Under the pieces are notes generated by a model. That model ran no database searches and was not told the DNA's origin. It saw only the letters and a list, made by a program, of their open reading frames with translations. 37,510 bases of DNA. It comes from Paludibacteraceae bacterium. GTDB lineage: Bacteria; Bacteroidota; Bacteroidia; Bacteroidales; Paludibacteraceae. The DNA lies in the NCBI GenBank assembly GCA_017630395.1, contig JAGBVI010000045.1, forward strand, positions 1 to 37,510, in the 5' to 3' direction. Positions 9,298 to 32,252 of this stretch are shown here, piece by piece; position 1 is the first letter of the stretch, and every line of letters begins with the position of its first letter. Made by a program: the position numbers and the translations under genes.

Positions 9298-10377
9298 TTA
9301 GAAAATTAGTACCCAAACTGCCATTACGAGCATATTAATTAAACTTATTGGCATTAAAATTTTCCATTCTAATTTAAGTAGTTGATCGATTCTCAATCGT
9401 GGGAATGACCATCTAACCCATAAACTTAAGAAAACCAATGCAAATACTTTTGCGAAGAACCACAACCAAGAAGGAATATAATCCATGATTGAGTTAAATC
9501 CGCTTGCCCATTCTGCATTGATGTGGAATGGTTGCCATCCTCCTAAAAAGATAGTAGTAGCTATTCCTGCAATAATGAACATATTCAAGTACTCAGCTAA
9601 GTAGAAAAATCCAAATTGAATTCCAGAGTACTCTGTATGGTATCCGGCTGTCAATTCAGACTCAGCTTCCGGTAAATCGAACGGACCGCGGTTGGTTTCG
9701 GCATGTCCGGCTATTAAATAGATTACAAAAGCGATAAAAGCAGGGAGAGGAGCCTGGAAGATAAACCAAGCATCAGCTTGCTTTTCTACAATTGTAGATA
9801 ATTGCATTGAACCTGCCAAGATCACCATTGTTAATATAGAGATACTTGCAGATAATTCATAACTTACTAATTGGGCTCCACTACGCATAGCACCAATCAA
9901 GGTATATTTGTTATTACTAGCCCATCCTGCCAATAAAATTCCAACTACACCCAACGAAGATATAGCCAATAAGTAGAAAACACCTACATTGAAGTCAATT
10001 CCTTGTAGTCCTTTTCCGAATGGCAATGCACCGAAAGTACACAGAGAGCCGGTCAATACGATGAATGGAGCCAATTTGAACAAAACATTATCCGTCTTTG
10101 TGATGGCAATAATCTCTTTCAATAAGATCTTTACCATATCGGCTATACTTTGGAAAATTCCAAAAGGTCCAACACGATTAGGTCCGATACGACATTGGAA
10201 GAAGGCACAGACTTTTCGTTCAACGTAGATTAAAACCAATGCCAATACGCAATAAACAGCCAAGAAGGCAACGCCTATCAGCACATACTCTATCAATGAT
10301 ACCAACCAAGCCATTTCCGGCATAGCCGAAGTCAATCCTTCGTGTATCAAATTTACTAATTTATCTAATTCTAACAT
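9298..10377 (-). CDS. nuoH: NADH-quinone oxidoreductase subunit H
   Basis: 359 residues with eight or more membrane helices. Family motifs include [20 protein letters not shown] near residues 53-72, [20 protein letters not shown] near 233-252 and the C-terminal [15 protein letters not shown]. These acidic loops line the quinone chamber and couple electron transfer to proton movement. NuoH anchors the peripheral arm (NuoB/CD/I) to the membrane. It is located 18 bases after nuoCD. No NuoG gene lies between CD and H, where it sits in the 14-gene operons. Confidence 0.97.
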
Positions 10378-13276: not shown

Positions 13277-13565
13277 TAAATTCAGCCAATTTTTATAACA
13301 TATTTTGACATTTTGAAAGTTGTGTTGTGTGAATTTATCTGATTTTTTTTTAAATTATTTTCAAAATGTGTGAATATTAATTATTAGAGTGTTAAAATGA
13401 TAGTAAAATTACTTGTTAACCTCTTTTTTTGATTATTTAAAGTTTTTTTCAACAACCAGATTTTAAAGTGTGAGTATAAGAAACTGTTTAAATTTTATTA
13501 TTAAATTGTTTCTGAGTTTTATAAAGTACTATTTCAAACAATAAAAATATTGATTAAAATGTCTA
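13277..13565. other. AT-rich intergenic stretch, nothing recognised
   Basis: Very AT-rich sequence between the small upstream gene and repeat copy 2. No reading frame, strong hairpin or convincing promoter was seen. Confidence 0.5.
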
Positions 13566-13961
13566 AGAAGTTGTTTAAATTTTATTTCGAGCATATTTGA
13601 GAAAGATTTTTAAATCTATTTTTAATCTTCTTTTGCAGAAAATAGTGGACTATTATCAAAAAAGGAGAATAAAAATAGGTTTAAGGTGAGTACTATAAAT
13701 TCACCGTTTAAAATTTAAAAAGTGTAAATCGCAGATTGATAAACTTTTCGGTAATTTTTGATTTCTTTTGGCAAATTGCTGCATGTCAGTCTGTCATAGT
13801 GCTTGCACTGCTTCCTTCTTTCGCACAGCAATTTACTCGAAATAAATTCAAAAATTCCACGAAATGAATTTATAGAACCCACCTAAAAGAATCTCAAAGA
13901 TGCCGAAAATAAGAGAGTGAAACTCTAAAATAATTTTTTTAATAAAATTTAAACAACTTCT
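13566..13961 (+). repeat. MITE-like repeat, copy 2 (full length, 396 bp)
   Basis: The left end AGAAGTTGTTTAAATTTTAT (13566-13585) and the right end (13942-13961) are perfect 20-base inverted repeats. Inside, a second inverted pair of AGGTGAGTACTATAAATTC type lies near 13683-13702 and 13865-13884. No open reading frame is present, so it cannot encode its own transposase. Homologous copies are at 1-182, 24011-24405, 36685-36832 and from 37375. No clear target-site duplication is visible. Confidence 0.92.
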
Positions 13962-22168: not shown

Positions 22169-22696
22169 TTAAAGTAAAAGTAAGCCTTCCGGCAAACTCA
22201 TTATTATTTTTTTTCTTTGTTCGTCAATATCAACAACAAAATCATCTGACGCAGGAATAATCAACTCGTTTTTATTCTTATCATGTAACAAGAATAGAAC
22301 ATTTTCTGTTGTATCATCAATGTCAACAACCTCGCCAATGAATTGCTCTTCTTCAGTAAAAATTGAAAAACCTATAAAGTAACTGTTACCTTCCAACTCT
22401 GATGCGTCTATTCCCCCCGTAAGGAATTTTTTATGGATGTAAATATCTCTTTTGATTAATTCTTTAGCATCCATTTCATTTTCTATCCCTTTTAAGGAAA
22501 ATAGGTATGTGTTCTCATTTTTATATCGATACTCTTCAATAAAAAATGGAATGAATATACCATCCGTTTCGGCTACTATATAGGGAGTTTCACACTCTTC
22601 GAATAGCTCAGAATTTACGTTGATCTCTAATTCGCCATTCAATCCATGCGATTTAGTGATTTTACCAATATGTACTAATTCTTCCCTTGCTATCAT
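22169..22696 (-). CDS. rimM: Ribosome maturation factor RimM
   Basis: 175 residues, normal for RimM. The N-terminal domain opens with LVHIGKITKSHGLNGELEI, the family signature of the reductase/translation-like barrel, and contains LKGIENEMDAKEL. The PRC-barrel domain (about 95-175) starts near SYFIGFSIFTEEE and includes VVDIDDTTENVLFLL and ELIIPASDDFVVDID. RimM assists 30S head assembly by binding protein S19 and 16S rRNA. It is the first gene of the run rimM-rlmB-rluA-like-unknown-M49. A TAaaTTTG -7 box on the minus strand (22719-22726) is a possible promoter. Confidence 0.93.
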   Translation of the reverse strand: MIAREELVHIGKITKSHGLNGELEINVNSELFEECETPYIVAETDGIFIPFFIEEYRYKNENTYLFSLKGIENEMDAKELIKRDIYIHKKFLTGGIDASELEGNSYFIGFSIFTEEEQFIGEVVDIDDTTENVLFLLHDKNKNELIIPASDDFVVDIDEQRKKIIMSLPEGLLLL

Positions 22697-22726: not shown

Positions 22727-22936
22727 GTTTCTTTTAATCAAAATATGAAATTTTAGAGCTGAATAGATGGTTTATTCTTTAAATTTATAGGGTAAGTTTA
22801 AGCGAAATATTACCTAAATTATTTTCTTTCGTGAGGTTATAGGTCTATTTCAATTTCAATGTTTACAGAAAATGTTTTTTTTGATATTTTTTTATTTTTA
22901 AAGATATATTTTTGTGGTTTATTCTATTTTTAATAT

Positions 22937-23061
22937 TATATTTGCAAAATCAATGATGAAGATTGTTGATTTAAAGTGTAATAATGGTTTTTTGGTAATG
23001 AACTTTAATTATGAAAATCTACTGTTTTGGGAAGAACTTAGGTTCTTCTCAAAATTTTTTT
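22937..23061 (+). ncRNA. Candidate small transcript with promoter and terminator
   Basis: A -7 box TATATTTG (22937-22944), with TTTG at 22911-22914, is followed by about 115 bases. These end in a perfect-looking terminator: TTTTGGGAAGAAC (23025-23037) pairs with GTTCTTCTCAAAA (23042-23054) over 13 pairs with one G-U, then seven T. A 39-codon frame (22953-23072, MMKIVDLKCNNG at its start) overlaps it, but its end runs past the U tract, so a non-coding RNA is at least as likely as a peptide gene. No family is recognised. Confidence 0.4.
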
Positions 23062-23179
23062 ATAATCCCTAAATTTAATAACTTCAAAAGTTTTTGAAAT
23101 AAATTTTAGCCCACACTTTTCTCAATAGTTTTTTCTATAATATTTGAGTTATGTCCTTTTTTTTGAGTTATATTCTAAA

Positions 23180-23208
23180 TTTGAAATAATCATTTATCCT
23201 TACATTTG
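23180..23208 (+). promoter_or_regulatory. Candidate promoter in the gene-poor stretch
   Basis: TTTG (23180-23183), a 17-base spacer, then TACATTTG (23201-23208): both boxes match the Bacteroidetes consensus. It could drive the short frame at 23278-23370. Confidence 0.4.
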
Positions 23209-23277
23209 TTAGCACTTGGTCTGATACATCTTAGTAAATTATACAATATGAATTGAATAATAAATGAATAGTAGGGT

Positions 23278-23370
23278 ATGGTTAATATTATTGAGAAGGT
23301 GTATTTAGGCAATTTTGTACTGTTGAATCTAACTTTGTTTGTCAAAGTTGGGATTGTTATTTTCTTTTGA
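23278..23370 (+). CDS. Possible 30-codon hydrophobic peptide
   Basis: The frame begins MVNIIEKVYLGNF and ends in a hydrophobic stretch (LLNLTLFVKVGIVIFF), which looks like a short membrane segment. A two-box promoter lies about 70 bases upstream (23180-23208). I do not recognise the peptide. In so AT-rich a stretch short frames of this kind arise by chance, so confidence is low. Confidence 0.2.
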   Translation: MVNIIEKVYLGNFVLLNLTLFVKVGIVIFF

Positions 23371-23484
23371 AAAAATTATATAGAGTAGTTGCAAATGTTA
23401 CGTTATTCGATGAAATGGGATGATTTTGAATTTAATTTCCATATGAATAGATTTTTATTCCATGCTTACAGTGAATTTTTAGTT

Positions 23485-23492
23485 TACTTTTG
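23485..23492 (+). promoter_or_regulatory. -7 box upstream of RNA module A
   Basis: TACTTTTG matches TAnnTTTG. It lies 100 bases before the TCACA element of module A. The same TTACTTTTG string lies 106 bases before TCACA of module B, so the spacing is nearly conserved. Confidence 0.5.
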
Positions 23493-23562
23493 CTTTGCAA
23501 TGATGGAAGAAATTGTTTTCTATTCTATCGTTCTTTAATTAGTGTAATAAAAAGAAGGATTA

Positions 23563-23687
23563 TTTATTCTTTGTAAAGAAATAAAATAAAATCACATCAG
23601 AAGACTTTTAGAAAACCACAAAGGGGCATGATATCTGTGAAGCCATCTTGTTCCCAAAAAAAGGAAGCCTCAAAACTTCCTTTTTTT
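23563..23687 (+). ncRNA. Structured RNA module A (novel family, pseudoknot)
   Basis: Module A has a 5' hairpin (about 23563-23590), then TCACA (23592-23596), an A-rich connector, and a variable stem at 23623-23655 (GGGGCATGAT pairing with ATCTTGTTCCC, imperfect). The loop of that stem holds CTGTGAAGCC with TGTGA (23636-23640), complementary to TCACA. An intrinsic terminator follows (GGAAG/CTTCC flanked by A7 and T7, 23656-23687). The 50 bases 23573-23622 are identical to 24569-24618 in module B. No known RNA class is recognised. Confidence 0.55.
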
Positions 23688-23842
23688 ATTTCTCTATCAT
23701 CTTCTTTTTTGGTGATACTGGTCATCTATAAAAGAATGTAGTGAAGATCTTTGAAGACTATTTTGTTAGGGTTATTTTTTTTAAATGAGAGGTTGAAAGT
23801 AACAATATTAAGAATTGCTCTAACAAAAATGTAATAATAGTA

Positions 23843-23925
23843 ATAAAATATAGAATCACAGCAGAAGACTTAAATAATACACTAAGGTAAGATAGCTGTG
23901 AGTTTCTTTTGCTTTCATTTTTTTT
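23843..23925 (+). ncRNA. Structured RNA module C (diverged copy)
   Basis: A diverged relative of modules A and B. TCACAGC (23856-23862) is followed by AGAAGACTT, a variable stem (AAGGTAAGA with TCTTTTGCTTT), and a loop with GCTGTGA (23895-23901), here a 7-base match to TCACAGC. A run of eight T (23918-23925) ends it. The 5' hairpin is not obvious. It may be a decayed or a divergent functional copy. Confidence 0.4.
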
Positions 23926-24010
23926 ATTAATATGGCTGTCTAACTTAAGCAAATAGCTCTTTAAAGGAACTTGACCATATCAGTTTAACTTCTATTAAAT
24001 AGATATTCTT

Positions 24011-24405
24011 AGAAGTTGTTTAAATTTTATTTCGTGCATATTTGAGAGAGATTTTTAAATCTATTTTTAGTCTTCTTTTGCAGAAAATAGGGGACTATTA
24101 TCAAAAAAGGAGAATAAAAATAGGTTTAAGGTGAGTACTATAAATTCACTGTTTAAAATTTAAAAAGTGTAAATCGCAGATTGATAAACTTTTCGGTAAT
24201 TTTTGATTTCTTTCGGCAATTTGCTGCTTGTCAGTCGGTCACAGTGCTCGCACTGCTCCGTTCTTTCGCACGGCAATTTACTCGAAATAAATTCAAAAAT
24301 TCCACGAAATGAATTTATAGAACCCACCTAAAAGAATCTCAAAGATGCCGAAAATAAGAGAGTGAAACTCTAATTTTTTTTTTTAATAAAATTTAAACAG
24401 CTTCT
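24011..24405 (+). repeat. MITE-like repeat, copy 3 (full length, 395 bp)
   Basis: It matches copy 2 almost base for base. The left terminal repeat is AGAAGTTGTTTAAATTTTAT (24011-24030); the right end (24386-24405) has one mismatch. It carries scattered substitutions and no reading frame. It sits between RNA modules C and B. Confidence 0.92.
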
Positions 24406-24474
24406 TATAGTTTGTTTGCTATTTTATTACATTATAATGGTAATTTTTTCCATGTTAAAAATGATTTGTATTCT

Positions 24475-24482
24475 TACTTTTG
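24475..24482 (+). promoter_or_regulatory. -7 box upstream of RNA module B
   Basis: TACTTTTG, the same box as upstream of module A and at nearly the same distance (106 bases to TCACA). This supports a shared transcription-unit layout. Confidence 0.5.
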
Positions 24483-24557
24483 TTGTACTGATTCTTAAGG
24501 AGATGAGTCTTTATTCAGTTTTGATTTATAAATGATATAAAATAATGAAGAGTAAAT

Positions 24558-24686
24558 TTTTATTCTTCGTAAAGAAATAAAATAAAATCACATCAGAAGA
24601 CTTTTAGAAAACCACAAAACAGGACAGCTGTGAAGCCTTCCTGTTTTAACAACAAAAATGGAGGTGTTTTTGCCTCCTTTTTTTTT
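24558..24686 (+). ncRNA. Structured RNA module B (novel family, pseudoknot)
   Basis: It has a 5' hairpin of TTTTATTCTT type, then the 50-base block identical to module A (24569-24618) with TCACA at 24588-24592. The stem AAAACAGGA (24616-24624) pairs perfectly with TCCTGTTTT (24639-24647). Its loop contains CTGTGAAGCC with TGTGA at 24629-24633. An intrinsic terminator follows (GGAGG/CCTCC plus nine T, 24660-24686). The stem sequence differs from module A while pairing is kept, which is evidence for a functional fold. Confidence 0.55.
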
Positions 24687-24687
24687 A

Positions 24688-25032
24688 GATCAAAGTGCAA
24701 GCGACCCCTATGGATGGATCGTCATCAGATTATAGACTCGACAACAATAACACTGTTCTCCAATCTTATTTTGAAAGGCACCGGGCGTCAGAGACAGACA
24801 AGAAAAAAGGCAGTATAAAGTTGCATACGGTCATACACGCCAATGAAGGTACCATCAAAATCCAAATTTGATTCACTCTGATTGCGAATCTGTTATTGAT
24901 GGTTCAGCAAAAACGACTGACTCGCCCGTGGTGTTTCTCCGGATTGGCGAATACGGCGTGGATAACGCTGATGAATTATGTTGATTTCTACAGTCTGTTT
25001 AATAATTCGGAAAAGATTGGGAAATTACGGTG
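24688..25032 (+). pseudogene. IS4-family transposase remnant
   Basis: Translation in shifting frames gives IIDSTTITLFSNLILKGTG, then after a frameshift KKKGSIKLHTVIHANEG, then IQI-stop-FTLIANLLLMVQQ and RPWCFSGLANTAWITLMNYV. These are recognisable parts of a Bacteroidetes IS4-type DDE transposase, with the DST motif carrying a catalytic Asp. The middle of the protein is deleted, there is at least one frameshift, and one Trp codon has apparently become TGA. The N-terminus is missing: the fragment begins right after the T tract of RNA module B. It is clearly non-functional. No terminal inverted repeats were found. Confidence 0.8.
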
Positions 25033-25184
25033 ATTTTAGACAAAAGTACCTCCTCAACCAACTCTTTTCTAAAGGGGGGGCTTGGAATAAAAAAAAGAAA
25101 TCTCATCCACTAAAAATAAGCGTTTGAGACCCCTTTTTAGGTTTTACCGTAACTAATAAAATAATTATGGTTCTATTGAAATAG
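25033..25184. other. Intergenic stretch after the IS4 remnant
   Basis: No gene. It contains a G7 run at about 25074-25080 and a weak TCTCA/TTGAGA inverted repeat near 25103-25132. It may include the decayed end of the insertion sequence. Confidence 0.4.
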
Positions 25185-25224
25185 AAAGGTTGGAAGGAGT
25201 ATTGTAAAACCTTCCAACCTTTTT
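25185..25224 (-). terminator. Intrinsic terminator of the xylanase gene
   Basis: AAAGGTTGGAAGG (25185-25197) and CCTTCCAACCTTT (25210-25222) form a perfect 13-base stem around a 12-base loop, next to T/A runs. It lies 9 bases past the xylanase stop codon. Confidence 0.9.
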
Positions 25225-25232
25225 AAGATGGA

Positions 25233-27254
25233 TTAATCATTTACCACAACCAATTGGTTCAAGCCATTTTCGCAACGAACCAAGTAGACTCCCTTCTTGA
25301 GGGATTCTTTCAACGCCGATATATTTCCATTATCAATGTACGCAGAAGTAATCAAAGACCCTTGTAGAGAGTAAACTTTGCAAATTCCGGAGAAGTTTGA
25401 AATAGCGTCAACCTCTTTCACACCAGTTTCTTCAGAGGTAGTGGTTGAAGTGAACACAAGTTTGTCGATGTTACAGTATGCGTTGGTGATAGTCAGGCGG
25501 AGGATATGTTCTCCCTCAGTCAAATTAAATTCTCCGAGTTCGATTTCCTCGAAAACGTCCCAAACATTGTCTCCTGTTTGAGGAACTGATACTTTTTCAA
25601 CCAACGCTTTTCCATCCATGTCGAGTTTGAATCCTGAACCCTCCAATCCAGAGGCAGCGAATGCAGAAAGTTTATATTCACCGCTCTTTTTGACATTGAC
25701 GGTATATTCAAGCCATTCGTCTGCCGCAGTATAACCGATTGCATAGTTATCGCCTCCGGTCACAATGTCGACACCACCATCTTGAATTTTAGCATCACCT
25801 TCATTTTCGCTGTCACTATCTTGGTAAACCTCGCCTTCGCAACCTTTGTCGAATGCTTCAACCTCGATTGTTCCAGGAATTGCTGCAGGCTCTCCGTTGA
25901 ATGGAGCACGTGCTTCGCATACGAAGAATTCAGTTGAACATTCAACAGTGTTGCCGCTCTTGTCATAAGCAACGACCTTGATTGTATGGAAACCTGATTC
26001 TGTTGGAGTATACTCCCATACATAAGGTTCGACATACTTATTGACAAGCAAGCTGTCTCCGTCGAATATGTCAATATGGTCTATATCTCCTTCAAATTTT
26101 GCAGAAGCGGTGATTGTGACTGTTTCTCCAAATTTTATAGTTTTGGATGACAAGTTCACAGTTGCTGATGGCCCACCACAATATGGGCTTTTTGCATTTA
26201 TAGCCGCATCAGTTGCCATATAGCTCTTAAGCCACTTCATACCGCTACGATCAGCTCCCGAGCTTGTTACCAAACCTGTGTTATCTCTCCAAGTTGCTCC
26301 ATTCACAAATCCCCAGATTGTGATACCTGCTACGTAATCAGCCTCCCACATTGGCTTGAAGGTATTCTTCATGATTGTTTCATAAGTGTTATCATCACCC
26401 TGTGAAATATCATACTCAGTGATGTAGCATAGCAATTCTTTGCCCCCTTTCTGAGTGATGCTATTGTGAATCTCCTTCAAAGTGTTGCCAAAGTTTGTGA
26501 TTTGATTGTTTTTGTAATAGTCATCCAAATCGTGACTCTGGTGTCCATAAGCATCAATTGGTGCGCCTTGCTGTACCAAAGAGGCTACAAGGTCAATAAA
26601 ATCATTTTTTTGCCAAGTGAAAGTGTTGTAATCATTATAGATCAACACCGCATTAGGGAATCTCTTACGAGCCATTCTGAATGCCTCGGCAATCCACTTA
26701 TAGTCATATGGATTGGTACTGTTGCCTAATGCCTGACTCAAAAGTTTCTTGAAATCAGCACATGAGTGACCATTTTCTGTCCCTTCAGCATGTCCTCTTA
26801 TCGCCTCATTGACAACATCGATCATTGACAAATCAGGATATTTGATAGCGACAGCATCCATCCAATATTCCACCTGCTGCTTCAATTCAGAAGCAGAGCA
26901 ATTTGCCAAACATGAAGGCCATTGACTAGTCCAAAGAAGACAGTGGAATTTGAACAATACACCGTTCTCCTTACACCATTTGTAATGAGCGTCCGAATTT
27001 TTCCAGTTCCATTTCTGGACACCCTCCTGAGCGCTGCTCACCTTACAATTAACGATAGATCCCCACTTGGATTCATTCTCACAAGTGAGCTGATCCCACA
27101 ATGCCTCATACCTCAGACCTCCAACATTAGGTTGAATTTGTCCGCGTGTGGTGATATTACCCAAAAACTTACATGGGTTTTGATTTAGTTGTGCGAAACA
27201 CGCAACACTGAAAGAAAATAGGAGAACTCCTATTGCCAGTAACCGTTTTTTCAT
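25233..27254 (-). CDS. GH10 endo-1,4-beta-xylanase with Ig-like, CBM6-type and T9SS sorting domains
   Basis: 673 residues, a secreted modular enzyme that cuts the xylan backbone. Signal peptide 1-21 (ends CFAQ). The GH10 barrel spans about 28-350: the acid/base Glu150 lies in DVVNEA and the nucleophile Glu280 in YITEYDIS; HCLLWTSQWP and WGFVNGATWRDN are further GH10 motifs. An Ig-like domain (about 362-450) follows, then a carbohydrate-binding module resembling CBM6 (about 470-602, with IGYTAADEWLEYTVNV and GEYKLSAFAASG). A C-terminal tail (about 612-673, VYSLQGSLI, LKKGVYLVR) resembles a type A T9SS sorting signal. It is transcribed alone with its own terminator. Codon use looks somewhat less AT-rich than neighbouring genes, and the flanks are a dead IS and a broken gene, so transfer is possible. 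Confidence 0.93.
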   Translation of the reverse strand: MKKRLLAIGVLLFSFSVACFAQLNQNPCKFLGNITTRGQIQPNVGGLRYEALWDQLTCENESKWGSIVNCKVSSAQEGVQKWNWKNSDAHYKWCKENGVLFKFHCLLWTSQWPSCLANCSASELKQQVEYWMDAVAIKYPDLSMIDVVNEAIRGHAEGTENGHSCADFKKLLSQALGNSTNPYDYKWIAEAFRMARKRFPNAVLIYNDYNTFTWQKNDFIDLVASLVQQGAPIDAYGHQSHDLDDYYKNNQITNFGNTLKEIHNSITQKGGKELLCYITEYDISQGDDNTYETIMKNTFKPMWEADYVAGITIWGFVNGATWRDNTGLVTSSGADRSGMKWLKSYMATDAAINAKSPYCGGPSATVNLSSKTIKFGETVTITASAKFEGDIDHIDIFDGDSLLVNKYVEPYVWEYTPTESGFHTIKVVAYDKSGNTVECSTEFFVCEARAPFNGEPAAIPGTIEVEAFDKGCEGEVYQDSDSENEGDAKIQDGGVDIVTGGDNYAIGYTAADEWLEYTVNVKKSGEYKLSAFAASGLEGSGFKLDMDGKALVEKVSVPQTGDNVWDVFEEIELGEFNLTEGEHILRLTITNAYCNIDKLVFTSTTTSEETGVKEVDAISNFSGICKVYSLQGSLITSAYIDNGNISALKESLKKGVYLVRCENGLNQLVVVND

Positions 27255-28232: not shown

Positions 28233-28462
28233 ATAGCGTTTGCTATTTATTCGAGACATTCTGAAAGTTTGGCGATTTGAAGAAGCAAGTCATAGAATAA
28301 GTTCAGTGAACGTCTGCGCTTTGCGTGGACCGAACTTATTTGACTTGCAGGTTACGCCAAACACCTCAGAATGCGATAAGTGGAGTCCACGCTTGTCGTA
28401 TATGGAGGAGTTTGACGTAATACTGCTGTCATCGGTAAGTTGCTGACGCTGCAAATAGCGTA
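28233..28462 (+). promoter_or_regulatory. Long structured leader / palindromic element before the R-M gene
   Basis: A ~117-base imperfect hairpin spans 28257-28373, with four paired blocks: CATTCTGA/TCAGAATG, GTTTGGCG/CGCCAAAC, GCAAGTCA/TGACTTGC and GAATAAGTTC/GAACTTATT. A second hairpin (CGATAAG/CTTGTCG plus TGGA/TCCA, 28374-28398) follows. AAATAGC near 28453 can also pair with GCTATTT at 28242. It ends 8 bases before the R-M start codon. It may be a regulatory leader or an inserted palindromic repeat. Confidence 0.5.
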
Positions 28463-28469
28463 CGTGACG

Positions 28470-31400
28470 ATGATAACGAAAGATAATTTTCAGAAAGTTC
28501 TTGAAATCTTAGGATTTGAAGAAAATAATGATGTCTATTCCAAGACATTTCCTCAAAAGGAAGGATGTACAATAGGCGTAGATTTTAAGAATAAACAATT
28601 GTTCTATCCCGAAGAATTAGGTTTCAAAATTAATGATCGAACAACTTGCAATTTTGAACATCCCGAAAATTTCGTGGTTTTTGAGTGCGTCTATCGCCTT
28701 TTTGAAAAGGGTTATCGTCCGGAACATATAGAACTTGAAAAACGTTGGAATCTTGGACATGACGCAAAAGGCGGCAAAGCCGACATTTGCGTTTATGACA
28801 AAGATGGCAAGAATATGTTGCTTATTATCGAATGTAAGACAGCAGGCAGCGAACATTTAAAAGCTTTGAAACAATTAAAAGAAGATGGAGGGCAATTGTT
28901 TTCTTACTGGCAACAAGAACGCTCTTCTAAATGGCTTTCGCTTTATGCTTCTGATTTCAAAGATGAAGTTTTATCATTTGAAAATTATATCATTGACTGT
29001 TCTGATGATGAGAATGTAAAGAAACAATTTGCAAATGATAAATCTATTCGTTTGTTTGAAAATGCACAGACGGTAAAAGATTTATTTGAAGTTTGGGACG
29101 AAACTTATGACAAACTTATTCATGAAAAGGGTGTAATCTTTGGCGAAGATTCGCAAGCGTACCAAATCGGAGTACCGCCGCTTAGAAAAAAACGTTTGGA
29201 AGATTTTAAGTCAGAGGATAAAATCGTAAATCGTTTTGAGGAAATTTTACGTCATAACAACGTTAGTGACAAAGAAAATGCGTTCAATCGTCTTGTTGCA
29301 CTTTTTATCTGTAAATTGGTGGATGAAATGCAAAAGTCAGATGATGACATTGTTGAATTTCAATATAAAGTAGGCACAGATTCATACGAAAGTCTGCAAG
29401 ACAGACTGCAACGTCTGCATAAAGAAGGAATGGAAAAATTCATGGGCGAAGAGATTTATTATGTGTCAGACGACTATGCCGAAAATCTTTTTGCACAAAA
29501 ACTAAACGATAACAGGCGGAGAGCTGCAATTGAAGATTTAAGAAATACAATAAGGATTCTAAAATTCTATAGCAATAACGATTTTGCTTTTAAGGATGTG
29601 CATAATGAGGAACTGTTTTTTCAAAATGGAAAGATATTGGTAGAAGTTGTTCAACTATTCCAAAAATACAGAATTGTATATCCGTCAAAACATCAATTCC
29701 TTGGTGACTTGTTTGAGCAACTACTCAATAAAGGATTTAAGCAAAATGAAGGACAATTTTTCACTCCAATGCCTATTACACGCTTTATATGGGACTGTCT
29801 TCCATTGGATAAAATTGTGCGAAAGAAAGATAACTTTGTTTTTCCGAAAGTTATTGACTATGCTTGTGGAGCAGGTCACTTTCTCACTGAGGCTGTAGAA
29901 GCTATAAACAGCTATTTTATTGCTAATGGCAATATTGATGCAATTCGTGAAAATATGTGGTGTGAACATCATATTTTCGGAATAGAAAAAGATTATCGTC
30001 TTGCAAGAGTTGCAAAAGTTTCCCTCTATATGAATGGGGCTGGACAAGGGAAAATAAAATTTGGCGATGGTCTGGAACAGTATACCGATGAACAAATAAC
30101 TAATTCGTCATTCGATATTCTTGTTGCAAATCCACCCTATTCGGTCAGCGGTTTTAAAGGACATCTAAAACTTAAAAACAACAGTTTTGAGCTTTTAGAG
30201 AGAAACCTGATAAGCAATGACGGAAGCGAAATAGAAACGCTTTTTGTTGAACGCATTGCACAACTATTAAAACCAAAAGGAATTGCGGCGGTGGTTTTGC
30301 CTTCGTCAATTTTAAGCAATGACAGTAACAGTTATATGTGCGCACGCGAAATCATTTTGCAATTTTTCCATCTTAGAGCTGTGGCACAATTCGGAAGCAA
30401 AACTTTTGGTGCAACAGGCACTAATACGGTTGTTCTCTACCTCGAAAAATTTAACGAACCACCGAAGCGAAGAGAAATTGTAAAAGATGTCGTCAATGCA
30501 ATTCTTTCAGGAAAATTTTCTGAGGAGTGGGATGATAAGGAAGTCTTTCAGAAATACATTAAGAAAATCAATGTGACGGAAGATTTGTACAAGTCGTTTG
30601 CAACGGAAACCGCAACGAAAAAAGAACTTGAAGGGAACGAATATTTTGCACAATACATAGCATGGTTTGATAACCTCACAGAGGTTCAAAACAAACGTAA
30701 AAGCAACAAGTTCAAAAAAAGTTCTGAAGAAGAACAAAAGAAAGAAATTAAAGAGTTCTTTTTCAAGAAAGTTAAGGAAGTTGAGTCCGAAAAACTGATA
30801 TATTTTACATTGGTGCATGACCAAATCACATTGACTATTACAGCACCAGCCGACAATGCAGAACAGAAAAAGTTCTTGGGATATGATTGGAGCAACAGAA
30901 AAGGCGCTGAGGGAATACAAATCAGTCATACGGGTGGATTGCTATATAATGATACAGACCGTTATGCGACTGACACCATTGCGGCGGCAGTTCGCTTTGC
31001 GTTCGATAATAAGCAGATAGAACTGCCAGAACCACAAAACAAATATTGCGCTTACATCAATACGCATGACATGATTGATTTCAGTCGTACAAGTTTCAAC
31101 AAGGCAATAAAACTTACTGCGGATAAAAAGATTGAGATTAAGAGTAAGTGGCCGTTGGTGAAATTTGAATCAATTGTTTCCTTAATTGAAACAGGTTCAA
31201 GGCCAACAGGTGGAGTAGGATCTATTAGTGAGGGTGTTTTGTCTTTAGGAGGTGAACATATTGACAACACATCTGGATATATAAATCTAACTTCGCCCAA
31301 ATTTGTTTCATTTGATTATTACAATAAATCAACACGGGGAAAACTAAAAAAATCTGATTTGCTGATATGTAAAGATGGAGCATTAACAGGTAAAGTTGCT

Positions 31401-32252
31401 ATTGTAAGGGATGAACTTGATGGCAAAGAGGCAATGATAAATGAACATGTTTTCATTATTCGTTGTAAAGAAAAACTTACACAATTTTATTTGTTTGAGT
31501 TTTTATATTCTGTTATAGGACAAAATATTCTAAAAGCGAATATTACAGGTTCTGCTCAAGGAGGATTAAACAGCACAAATCTAAAAGCAATCAAAATCCC
31601 CCTTCCTCCTCTTGATATTCAGCAGCAAGTCGTTTCCGAGTGTGAAAAGGTTGATGAGGAATATAACAATAGTCGAATGACGATTGAGGAGTATAAGAGG
31701 AAGATTGCGGAGGTCTTTGAACGTTTGGAAGTTATAAGTAAATCGGGGGGGGTGAAAATCAATAAGTTAGCTCAGATAATTAAGCTTTCAAGTGGTAAGA
31801 TGTTATCTAATAAAAATAGAATTAAAGGCACTATTCCTGTTTACGGTGGTAATGGAATAACTGGTTATCACAACGAAGGATTTATACATACACCGACAAT
31901 AGTAATTGGAAGAGTGGGTGAATATTGTGGAAGTGTTCATCTTACAGAATCTGAAGCATGGATAACTGATAATGCACTATATGCGACAAATTATTTGTTA
32001 GATATAAATAAGAAATTTCTCTTTTATGTCCTCAAGCAATCTAATCTTAATCAGTATGCGAACAGAACAGGTCAGCCCAATATTTCTCAAGCTACTATTG
32101 CAAATGTTAAAATTCCTTATCCTAATATAGAAGAGCAAAACAATATCGTTTCCGAAATAGAATCTTACGAATCAAAAATAGCCGAAGCCAAAGCAGTAAT
32201 GGCAGGATGTGCAGAACGTAAGAAAAAGATATTGGAGAAGTGGTTGAGATGA
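28470..32252 (+). CDS. Single-chain restriction-modification-specificity enzyme (type IIG-like / type I-like fusion)
   Basis: 1260 residues from ATG 28470; a TTG at 28440 in the same frame is less likely. Domains in order: a PD-(D/E)xK nuclease domain (KADICVYD with Asp105, LIIECKTAG with Glu121 and Lys123); a helical linker; an N6-adenine methyltransferase of the HsdM type with EGQFFTP (about 427-433), SAM motif DYACGAGHFL (463-472) and catalytic NPPY (554-557); then two HsdS-like target-recognition domains, the first from about 894 (KWPLVKFESIVSLIETGSRP), the second from about 1094 (VKINKLAQIIKLSSGKMLS), each with a coiled-coil spacer. One protein could thus methylate and cut at a bipartite site. 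A G8 tract (31745-31752) lies exactly between the two recognition domains and makes phase variation likely. It is preceded by a structured leader and followed by a Uma2-like gene. Confidence 0.9.
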   Translation: MITKDNFQKVLEILGFEENNDVYSKTFPQKEGCTIGVDFKNKQLFYPEELGFKINDRTTCNFEHPENFVVFECVYRLFEKGYRPEHIELEKRWNLGHDAKGGKADICVYDKDGKNMLLIIECKTAGSEHLKALKQLKEDGGQLFSYWQQERSSKWLSLYASDFKDEVLSFENYIIDCSDDENVKKQFANDKSIRLFENAQTVKDLFEVWDETYDKLIHEKGVIFGEDSQAYQIGVPPLRKKRLEDFKSEDKIVNRFEEILRHNNVSDKENAFNRLVALFICKLVDEMQKSDDDIVEFQYKVGTDSYESLQDRLQRLHKEGMEKFMGEEIYYVSDDYAENLFAQKLNDNRRRAAIEDLRNTIRILKFYSNNDFAFKDVHNEELFFQNGKILVEVVQLFQKYRIVYPSKHQFLGDLFEQLLNKGFKQNEGQFFTPMPITRFIWDCLPLDKIVRKKDNFVFPKVIDYACGAGHFLTEAVEAINSYFIANGNIDAIRENMWCEHHIFGIEKDYRLARVAKVSLYMNGAGQGKIKFGDGLEQYTDEQITNSSFDILVANPPYSVSGFKGHLKLKNNSFELLERNLISNDGSEIETLFVERIAQLLKPKGIAAVVLPSSILSNDSNSYMCAREIILQFFHLRAVAQFGSKTFGATGTNTVVLYLEKFNEPPKRREIVKDVVNAILSGKFSEEWDDKEVFQKYIKKINVTEDLYKSFATETATKKELEGNEYFAQYIAWFDNLTEVQNKRKSNKFKKSSEEEQKKEIKEFFFKKVKEVESEKLIYFTLVHDQITLTITAPADNAEQKKFLGYDWSNRKGAEGIQISHTGGLLYNDTDRYATDTIAAAVRFAFDNKQIELPEPQNKYCAYINTHDMIDFSRTSFNKAIKLTADKKIEIKSKWPLVKFESIVSLIETGSRPTGGVGSISEGVLSLGGEHIDNTSGYINLTSPKFVSFDYYNKSTRGKLKKSDLLICKDGALTGKVAIVRDELDGKEAMINEHVFIIRCKEKLTQFYLFEFLYSVIGQNILKANITGSAQGGLNSTNLKAIKIPLPPLDIQQQVVSECEKVDEEYNNSRMTIEEYKRKIAEVFERLEVISKSGGVKINKLAQIIKLSSGKMLSNKNRIKGTIPVYGGNGITGYHNEGFIHTPTIVIGRVGEYCGSVHLTESEAWITDNALYATNYLLDINKKFLFYVLKQSNLNQYANRTGQPNISQATIANVKIPYPNIEEQNNIVSEIESYESKIAEAKAVMAGCAERKKKILEKWLR
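31745..31752 (+). repeat. G8 homopolymer tract in the R-M gene
   Basis: Eight consecutive G in the codons for SGGV, just before the second target-recognition domain. In the present length the frame is open. One base gained or lost would end the protein after the first recognition domain. Confidence 0.85.

Follow-up and report, generated by a model that had tools for sequence, protein, structure and literature searches.

We describe here, from the genome of an uncultured bacterium that presumably belongs to the Bacteroidales, a set of repeated intergenic modules that, with moderate confidence, we interpret as a paralogous family of independently transcribed, trans-acting, base-pairing sRNAs of approximately 175-200 nt. 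The repetition of these modules, their conservation, the covariation of one of their stems (stem II), and their promoter-like and terminator-like signals were established by computation. The family is new and very narrowly distributed, and it is of a kind that is already known in related bacteria.

Organization of the modules

The window, i.e. the whole stretch of 37,510 nucleotides that was analyzed, is one entire contig (C25) of the host genome, which amounts to 3.57 Mb in 128 contigs and is 99.8% complete. The intergenic region containing the modules is flanked by rimM (start at 22696, minus strand) and by a gene for a glycosyl hydrolase of family 10 (25233-27254, minus strand). The first-pass annotation had placed three modules, A, B, and C, in the window and had reported a run of 50 identical bases, with TCACA inside it, in A and B, and all of this was confirmed. 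A pattern search of the host genome yielded a fourth copy with the exact core, D, on contig C92, where it sits 3' of a gene for an S13 peptidase in the same orientation. When B was searched against its own genome with blastn, A was matched with an E-value of 5.6e-27 and D with 3.0e-12, while the next match had 0.06; therefore, the similarity among A, B, and D is far above chance. The features of the modules in the window are as follows.

23421..23482, plus strand: promoter-upstream element of A, 35/62 identities with B and 33/62 with D against a background of about 20
23485..23492, plus strand: TAnnTTTG -7 box of A (TACTTTTG), from the sequence, the motif being that given in the excerpts of PMC7366714
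23554..23572, plus strand: stem I hairpin of A, fold z-score -1.5
23592..23619, plus strand: 28-nt core of A (TCACA...CCAC), identical in B and D, 0/28 changes relative to the sister species
23623..23654, plus strand: stem II of A with a GUGA loop at 23637-23640, 11/14 positions paired, fold z-score -1.0
23656..23690, plus strand: intrinsic terminator of A, a terminator-like hairpin (23656-23687, 12-pair stem) followed by a T tract
23856..23883, plus strand: diverged core of C, within a covariance model match at 23842-23916 of 79.3 bits, C itself being in the model
23884..23925, plus strand: stem II of C with a GUGA loop at 23898-23901 and a T8 tract, 12/14 positions paired, fold z-score -0.4
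24411..24472, plus strand: promoter-upstream element of B, similar to those of A and D at a fixed distance, the B-D likeness being weak
24475..24482, plus strand: TAnnTTTG -7 box of B (TACTTTTG), from the sequence
24547..24568, plus strand: stem I hairpin of B, fold z-score -6.1
24588..24615, plus strand: 28-nt core of B, 0/28 changes relative to the sister species
24616..24647, plus strand: stem II of B with a GUGA loop at 24630-24633, 12/14 positions paired, fold z-score -4.1
24660..24686, plus strand: intrinsic terminator of B, a terminator-like hairpin (24660-24677, 7-pair stem) followed by a T tract

The elements follow one another in the order of upstream element, box, variable leader, stem I (in A, B, and D; not in C), A-rich linker, core, stem II, and terminator or T tract.

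The three copies had been described as lying in otherwise gene-free DNA; the copies themselves stand, but a repeated element of about 400 bp between C and B had been overlooked. This element, present at 24005-24405 and also at 1-182 and 13562-13961, has inverted ends (GAAGYTGTTTAAATTTTATT) and looks like a MITE. It was located, whole or in part, at no fewer than 40 sites of the host genome (40 out of 412 initial candidates were scored), it occurs in the sister species too, and many host contigs, including the window, start or stop inside it. A broken transposase remnant, assigned to a family by eye only, abuts the T tract of B (24690-25060); in the sister species, about 290 bp holding the end of an apparent sorting-tail protein separate B from this remnant. 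Another transposase-like remnant lies shortly past D (9819-10160 of that locus, minus strand) and, judged by eye, apparently belongs to a different element; its 113-codon frame had no Pfam match, and part of the stretch has many occurrences in the sister species.

Two further observations concern the surroundings of the modules. A single frame of 1270 codons (28440-32252, plus strand) combines the domains HSDR_N_2, N6_Mtase, and Methylase_S and has the appearance of a restriction-modification fusion enzyme. On the other side, a consensus-like promoter (TTTG, 22 bases, TATATTTG) in the stretch 22906-23072 (plus strand) precedes a frame of 38 codons that starts at 22956 (MKIVDLKC...) and at its end runs into a terminator-like hairpin (23024-23055); the stretch is near-identical in the sister species, where the frame end is shifted, and relatives of it with a meaningful E-value were not found at 13 further rimM loci from the genus. 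ARAGORN found neither tRNA nor tmRNA genes in the window.

Conservation of the core and covariation of stem II

The sister species carries A, B, and C in the matching place beside rimM, and D is absent from it, the matching site having a shorter intergenic region. The 28-nt core is identical in A, B, and D, and between the host and the sister species it has 0/28 changes in both A and B. The corresponding numbers were 86/414 upstream of A, 6/36 in stem II of A, 10/143 in the spacer between A and C, 4/85 in the core and stem of C, and 22/410 in the approximately 400-bp repeated element. B is nearly unchanged as a whole, as are the 61 bases before it (1/61 changed), and therefore B alone cannot single out the core.

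Seven copies (A, B, C, and D, and A, B, and C of the sister species) provided six distinct stem II sequences, since B of the sister species has the same stem II as B. It had been noted that the stems of A and B differ in sequence and nevertheless pair, with CTGTGAAGCC in both loops, and this proved correct. Over the six distinct sequences, 75 of the 84 cells pair, and when the lower ten positions of A, B, C, and D were considered, the native combination of arms paired at 37/40 cells and was the best of the 24 arm permutations, a value that was reached by 0 of 20000 arm shuffles. With all six sequences, 4 of the 720 arm permutations equaled the native one, and these were taken to be swaps among the identical arms A/A2 and C/C2. 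The stem II arms thus covary over all copies, as the first-pass annotation had asked to be checked, although the fold z-scores of stem II were mixed (B, -4.1; D, -6.0; A of the sister species, -2.4; A, -1.0; C, -0.4). Together with the unchanged core of A and B and the promoter-like and terminator-like signals of A, B, and D, the covarying arms support the proposal of a structured RNA that is present in several copies and has stems under selection.

These results also bear on the question of whether the copies are degenerate duplicates, or passengers of mobile DNA, that have no function at present. The transposase remnants just past B and D, which were read in translation, the repeated element between C and B, and the narrow distribution are what such an origin could produce. 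However, the core of A remained unchanged while its flanks changed by 7-20%, stem II covaries, the copies have no common outer ends, and the remnants near B and D look, by eye, like different elements, so that we regard this explanation as quite unlikely.

The loop of stem II is a GNRA tetraloop in 7/7 copies, GUGA in six of them and GAGA in D. Openness is predicted to be higher in the core (0.62-0.73) than over the transcript as a whole (0.43-0.45), but that of the core is not beyond that of shuffled cores in the same place, as 8 to 26 of 100 shuffles were equally open.

The proposed pseudoknot and a possible peptide

A conserved pseudoknot between TCACA in the core and TGTGA in the loop of stem II had been proposed, with an RNA antitoxin or a processed guide among the suggested roles. 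Such pairing is possible in 28/30 cells over the six distinct sequences and, when the loop cost is ignored, the pseudoknot gains 3.7 kcal/mol for a loss of 2.4 kcal/mol in the hairpin of A, B, and A2. Nevertheless, the pairing shows zero covariation, it is broken without compensation in two of the six distinct sequences, D (TGAGA) and C of the sister species (TCACT), and in D only 0.7 kcal/mol would be gained for 2.4 lost, the loop cost again being ignored. The 7-base extended pairing described for C fared no better, since TCACT interrupts it in C of the sister species. We therefore rejected the pseudoknot as a conserved feature on the basis of the uncompensated breaks, the absence of covariation, and the energy balance in D. 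The GNRA tetraloop accounts for the constant loop with fewer assumptions, and a passing TCACA/TGTGA pairing may occur in A and B.

The roles that had been attached to the pseudoknot are also poorly matched by the arrangement of the copies. Type III RNA antitoxins are tandem pseudoknot repeats located directly before a toxin gene. The modules are dispersed single units with one core each, and the neighboring genes that were identified are rimM, the GH10 gene, the S13 peptidase gene, and a GH8 gene, in addition to the transposase remnants; no intact toxin-like gene was seen beside the copies. A 17-mer of the core, with up to 3 mismatches allowed, recurs at 31 places, which are dispersed among many contigs without making up an array. 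With the pseudoknot itself unsupported, nothing seen here favors a type III antitoxin, and we consider an RNA acting as an antitoxin or a processed guide through the TCACA/TGTGA pairing to be very improbable.

Even less probable is a short peptide gene, to which we give hardly any weight. The core can be read as K-I-T-S-E-D-F-stop, D has an in-frame ATG (MKYKITSEDF), and C has a related open stretch. This reading was rejected on the grounds that a stop lies three codons earlier in A and B, which have no in-frame ATG, GTG, or TTG, and that the identity among A, B, and D runs on past the stop codon.

Promoter-like and terminator-like signals

A TAnnTTTG box of the sigma-ABfr type is present in A, B, and D. 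In the host, this motif is enriched in the sense direction upstream of genes, with 161 sense occurrences in 380 upstream regions compared with 87 antisense occurrences and 65 for a reversed control. The same box had been reported approximately 100 bases ahead of TCACA in A and B, and indeed TACTTTTG was located 107 bases ahead of it in A and 113 bases in B. The core starts 89-113 bases past the -7 box and the second hairpin stands before the terminator, the transcript ends being predicted. In the stretch of C that was examined, there was no TAnnTTTG and no promoter-upstream element, and C is probably a diverged copy without its own promoter. The first 45-63 bases predicted to be transcribed were no more alike among the copies than shuffled sequences.

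Upstream of the box, A, B, and D have in common an element that is ungapped and at an equal distance from the -7 box. Identities over its 62 positions were 35 for A-B, 33 for A-D, and 30 for B-D, compared with a mean of about 20 over 718 AT-rich TAnnTTTG sites in a genome sample; the respective values were reached by 2, 4, and 7 of these 718 sites, which include the modules, and B-D is thus the weakest pair. Local alignment of the elements gave scores that were reached by 0 of 2000 shuffles for A-D, 49 for A-B, and 1212 for B-D. When the host and sister genomes were searched with a profile of the element, its own five rows scored 50-58 bits and the next best site 18.2 bits, so that no strong site was found in either genome besides those of the five profile modules, and nine weaker loci had no core match. 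Weak full-length matches on contig C13 of the host (84752-84818, minus strand, 14.7 bits), where a large FG-GAP-like gene follows on the same strand, and on contig C15 of the sister species (23719-23786, 14.0 bits) are probably due to chance.

At the other end, the modules had been said to finish in a terminator or a T8 tract, and terminator-like hairpins were found in A and B and a T8 tract in C. The region 23000-25240 has 5 terminator-like sites, compared with 1.1 (sd 1.2) in shuffled sequences.

Distribution of the family

With the covariance model (R1), the seven copies scored 77-99 bits; five of these (A, B, C, D, and A of the sister species) are the model's own rows, and B and C of the sister species are nearly the same as its rows. 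All other matches seen had 39.0 bits or less. Among 16 genomes of the genus, strong matches were limited to the host and the sister species, the best score elsewhere being 28.6 bits, and the same was true among 358 genomes of the family, which gave two weak matches of 37.5 and 34.3 bits. In 393 genomes of the order, which were sampled evenly from a larger set, the highest score apart from those of the host was 33.1 bits. The first-pass annotation had looked to many homologues for support, and a single further species was found.

The best outside match falls within an open reading frame on a contig of Tenacibaculum (the frame reads KITAEDF), and the family matches of 37.5 and 34.3 bits have the look of terminator hairpins and were judged to be chance, although for one of these two, which has a hairpin-linker-hairpin layout and, on the opposite strand to its terminator, CAGAAGACT, there is a small probability that it is genuine. 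Six weak matches from the genus and family, whose alignments were inspected, likewise look like terminators or chance. The order genomes gave 31 non-own matches at E-values up to 0.01 (28-33 bits), of which 10 were inspected as alignments; one of 31.5 bits, which has AAATCACA.CAGAA and CTGTGAAG and broken stem pairs, was judged to be chance.

Other collections were searched as well. One pattern matched 19 stretches in a contig collection, and the only one that scored as the real copies do presumably comes from the sister species. Viral contigs contained at least 119 stretches with a short pattern, the best score among the 80 listed loci being 27.0 bits, and 0 matches to two longer patterns; phages had no match for B, and plasmids had one 29-base match for A. 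When 13 further rimM loci from the genus were scanned for motifs on the strand matching that in the window, one CTATGAAG only and no core came to light; the contig ends within 0.5 kb upstream at 3 of these 13 loci, and the species concerned are distant, as their RimM proteins are only 43-49% identical. Comparison with Rfam, which had been suggested as a check, revealed no existing family: there were no matches at the gathering threshold in the window or at two loci of the sister species, and around the modules and D nothing rose above chance level. In the open-access literature, we recognized no paper describing this RNA family.

Potential targets and partners

The target scans covered approximately one third of the host genome. 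Duplexes of -12 kcal/mol or better were predicted at 73 of 646 starts, compared with 58.8 (sd 10.7) for shuffled cores, and 4 of 40 shuffles reached the observed number; furthermore, windows in the middle of genes outscored the starts (150 windows of the same genes versus 73 starts). Exact complements of 7-9 bases of the core at 932 starts were fewer than for shuffles. Near-matches to the first half of the core were located at 17 places, 4 of which are the modules themselves, with 4 antisense to a gene and 0 within 50 bases of a start. Since these searches gave no enrichment, base pairing at mRNA starts is something that we infer.

A protein partner was also considered. The same sRNA genes could produce RNAs whose core and GNRA hairpin bind and titrate a protein rather than pair with mRNAs, with the copy number setting the dose. 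The invariant 28-nt core, the GNRA loop in 7/7 copies, and the lack of target enrichment in start regions are all consistent with this, but there is no candidate protein: the search for RNA-binding proteins, which covered RRM_1, found no RRM_1 protein in the 99.8% complete host genome, the same search being positive for a Bacteroides and one other of the 14 control genomes. Titration of a protein is, in our judgment, unlikely. Because the target tests gave no support and the openness of the core was within the range of the shuffles, our confidence in a family of base-pairing sRNAs is no more than moderate, and protein binding is its main rival.

Comparison with known sRNAs

Multi-copy sRNAs of Bacteroidota are known mainly from Bacteroides, with an RRM protein as partner. 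According to the excerpts of PMC11697453, the FopS sRNAs of B. thetaiotaomicron are paralogous sRNAs of about 65-70 nt, with a 5' seed and 14 copies, that are bound by the RRM protein RbpB and have been deposited in Rfam. Like FopS as presented there, the modules are several paralogous intergenic units per genome with TAnnTTTG-type promoters, an intrinsic terminator, and a conserved single-stranded stretch, which is predicted in our case. In contrast to FopS as described in those excerpts, the modules have a predicted length of about 175-200 nt, four copies, and a core in the middle of the RNA between two hairpins, and no RRM_1 protein was found in the host genome. GibS of B. thetaiotaomicron is, in the excerpts of PMC7366714, a single gene with a 5' seed, a PM2 promoter, and known targets. 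The modules are similar to it, as far as it is described there, in having a long unstructured conserved region in addition to hairpins and a terminator, and they differ from it in the mid-RNA position of the core, the TAnnTTTG promoter, the multiple copies, and the lack of targets found. A six-member sRNA family of B. thetaiotaomicron adjoins transposases or invertases (excerpts of PMC11697453). The modules, which were compared with this family by its description only, resemble it as paralogous sRNAs near transposase sequence, whereas only remnants were seen, near B and D, and these apparently belong, by eye, to different elements. There is no demonstrated sequence relation of FopS or GibS to the modules, which have no Rfam match, the presence of FopS in the searched copy of Rfam being unconfirmed.

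Proposed mode of action

Under the explanation that we favor, a paralogous family of base-pairing sRNAs, transcription of A, B, and D would each begin at a TAnnTTTG promoter with a common upstream element and stop at an intrinsic terminator. In these RNAs, stem I and the GNRA-capped stem II would flank the A-rich linker and the constant 28-nt core, and the hairpins would give stability. The core would be the working surface, most likely an extended seed that pairs in trans with other RNAs in the manner of GibS and FopS, whose conserved unpaired seeds block translation starts according to the excerpts of PMC7366714 and PMC11697453. Transcription, trans action, and base pairing of the modules are thus what we infer.

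The promoter-upstream element common to A, B, and D predicts that these copies are switched on together. One could go further and propose a lineage-specific sRNA regulon, with a common control site upstream of the promoters, an invariant core between hairpins, no RRM protein, and a partner other than an mRNA start, but to this more specific proposal we assign a low probability. If the favored explanation is true, a family with no demonstrated relation to the sRNAs of Bacteroides, in a host with no detected RRM_1 protein, would suggest repeated origins of such systems, and A, B, and D would provide a compact case for finding out how sRNAs of Bacteroidota work without an RRM partner.
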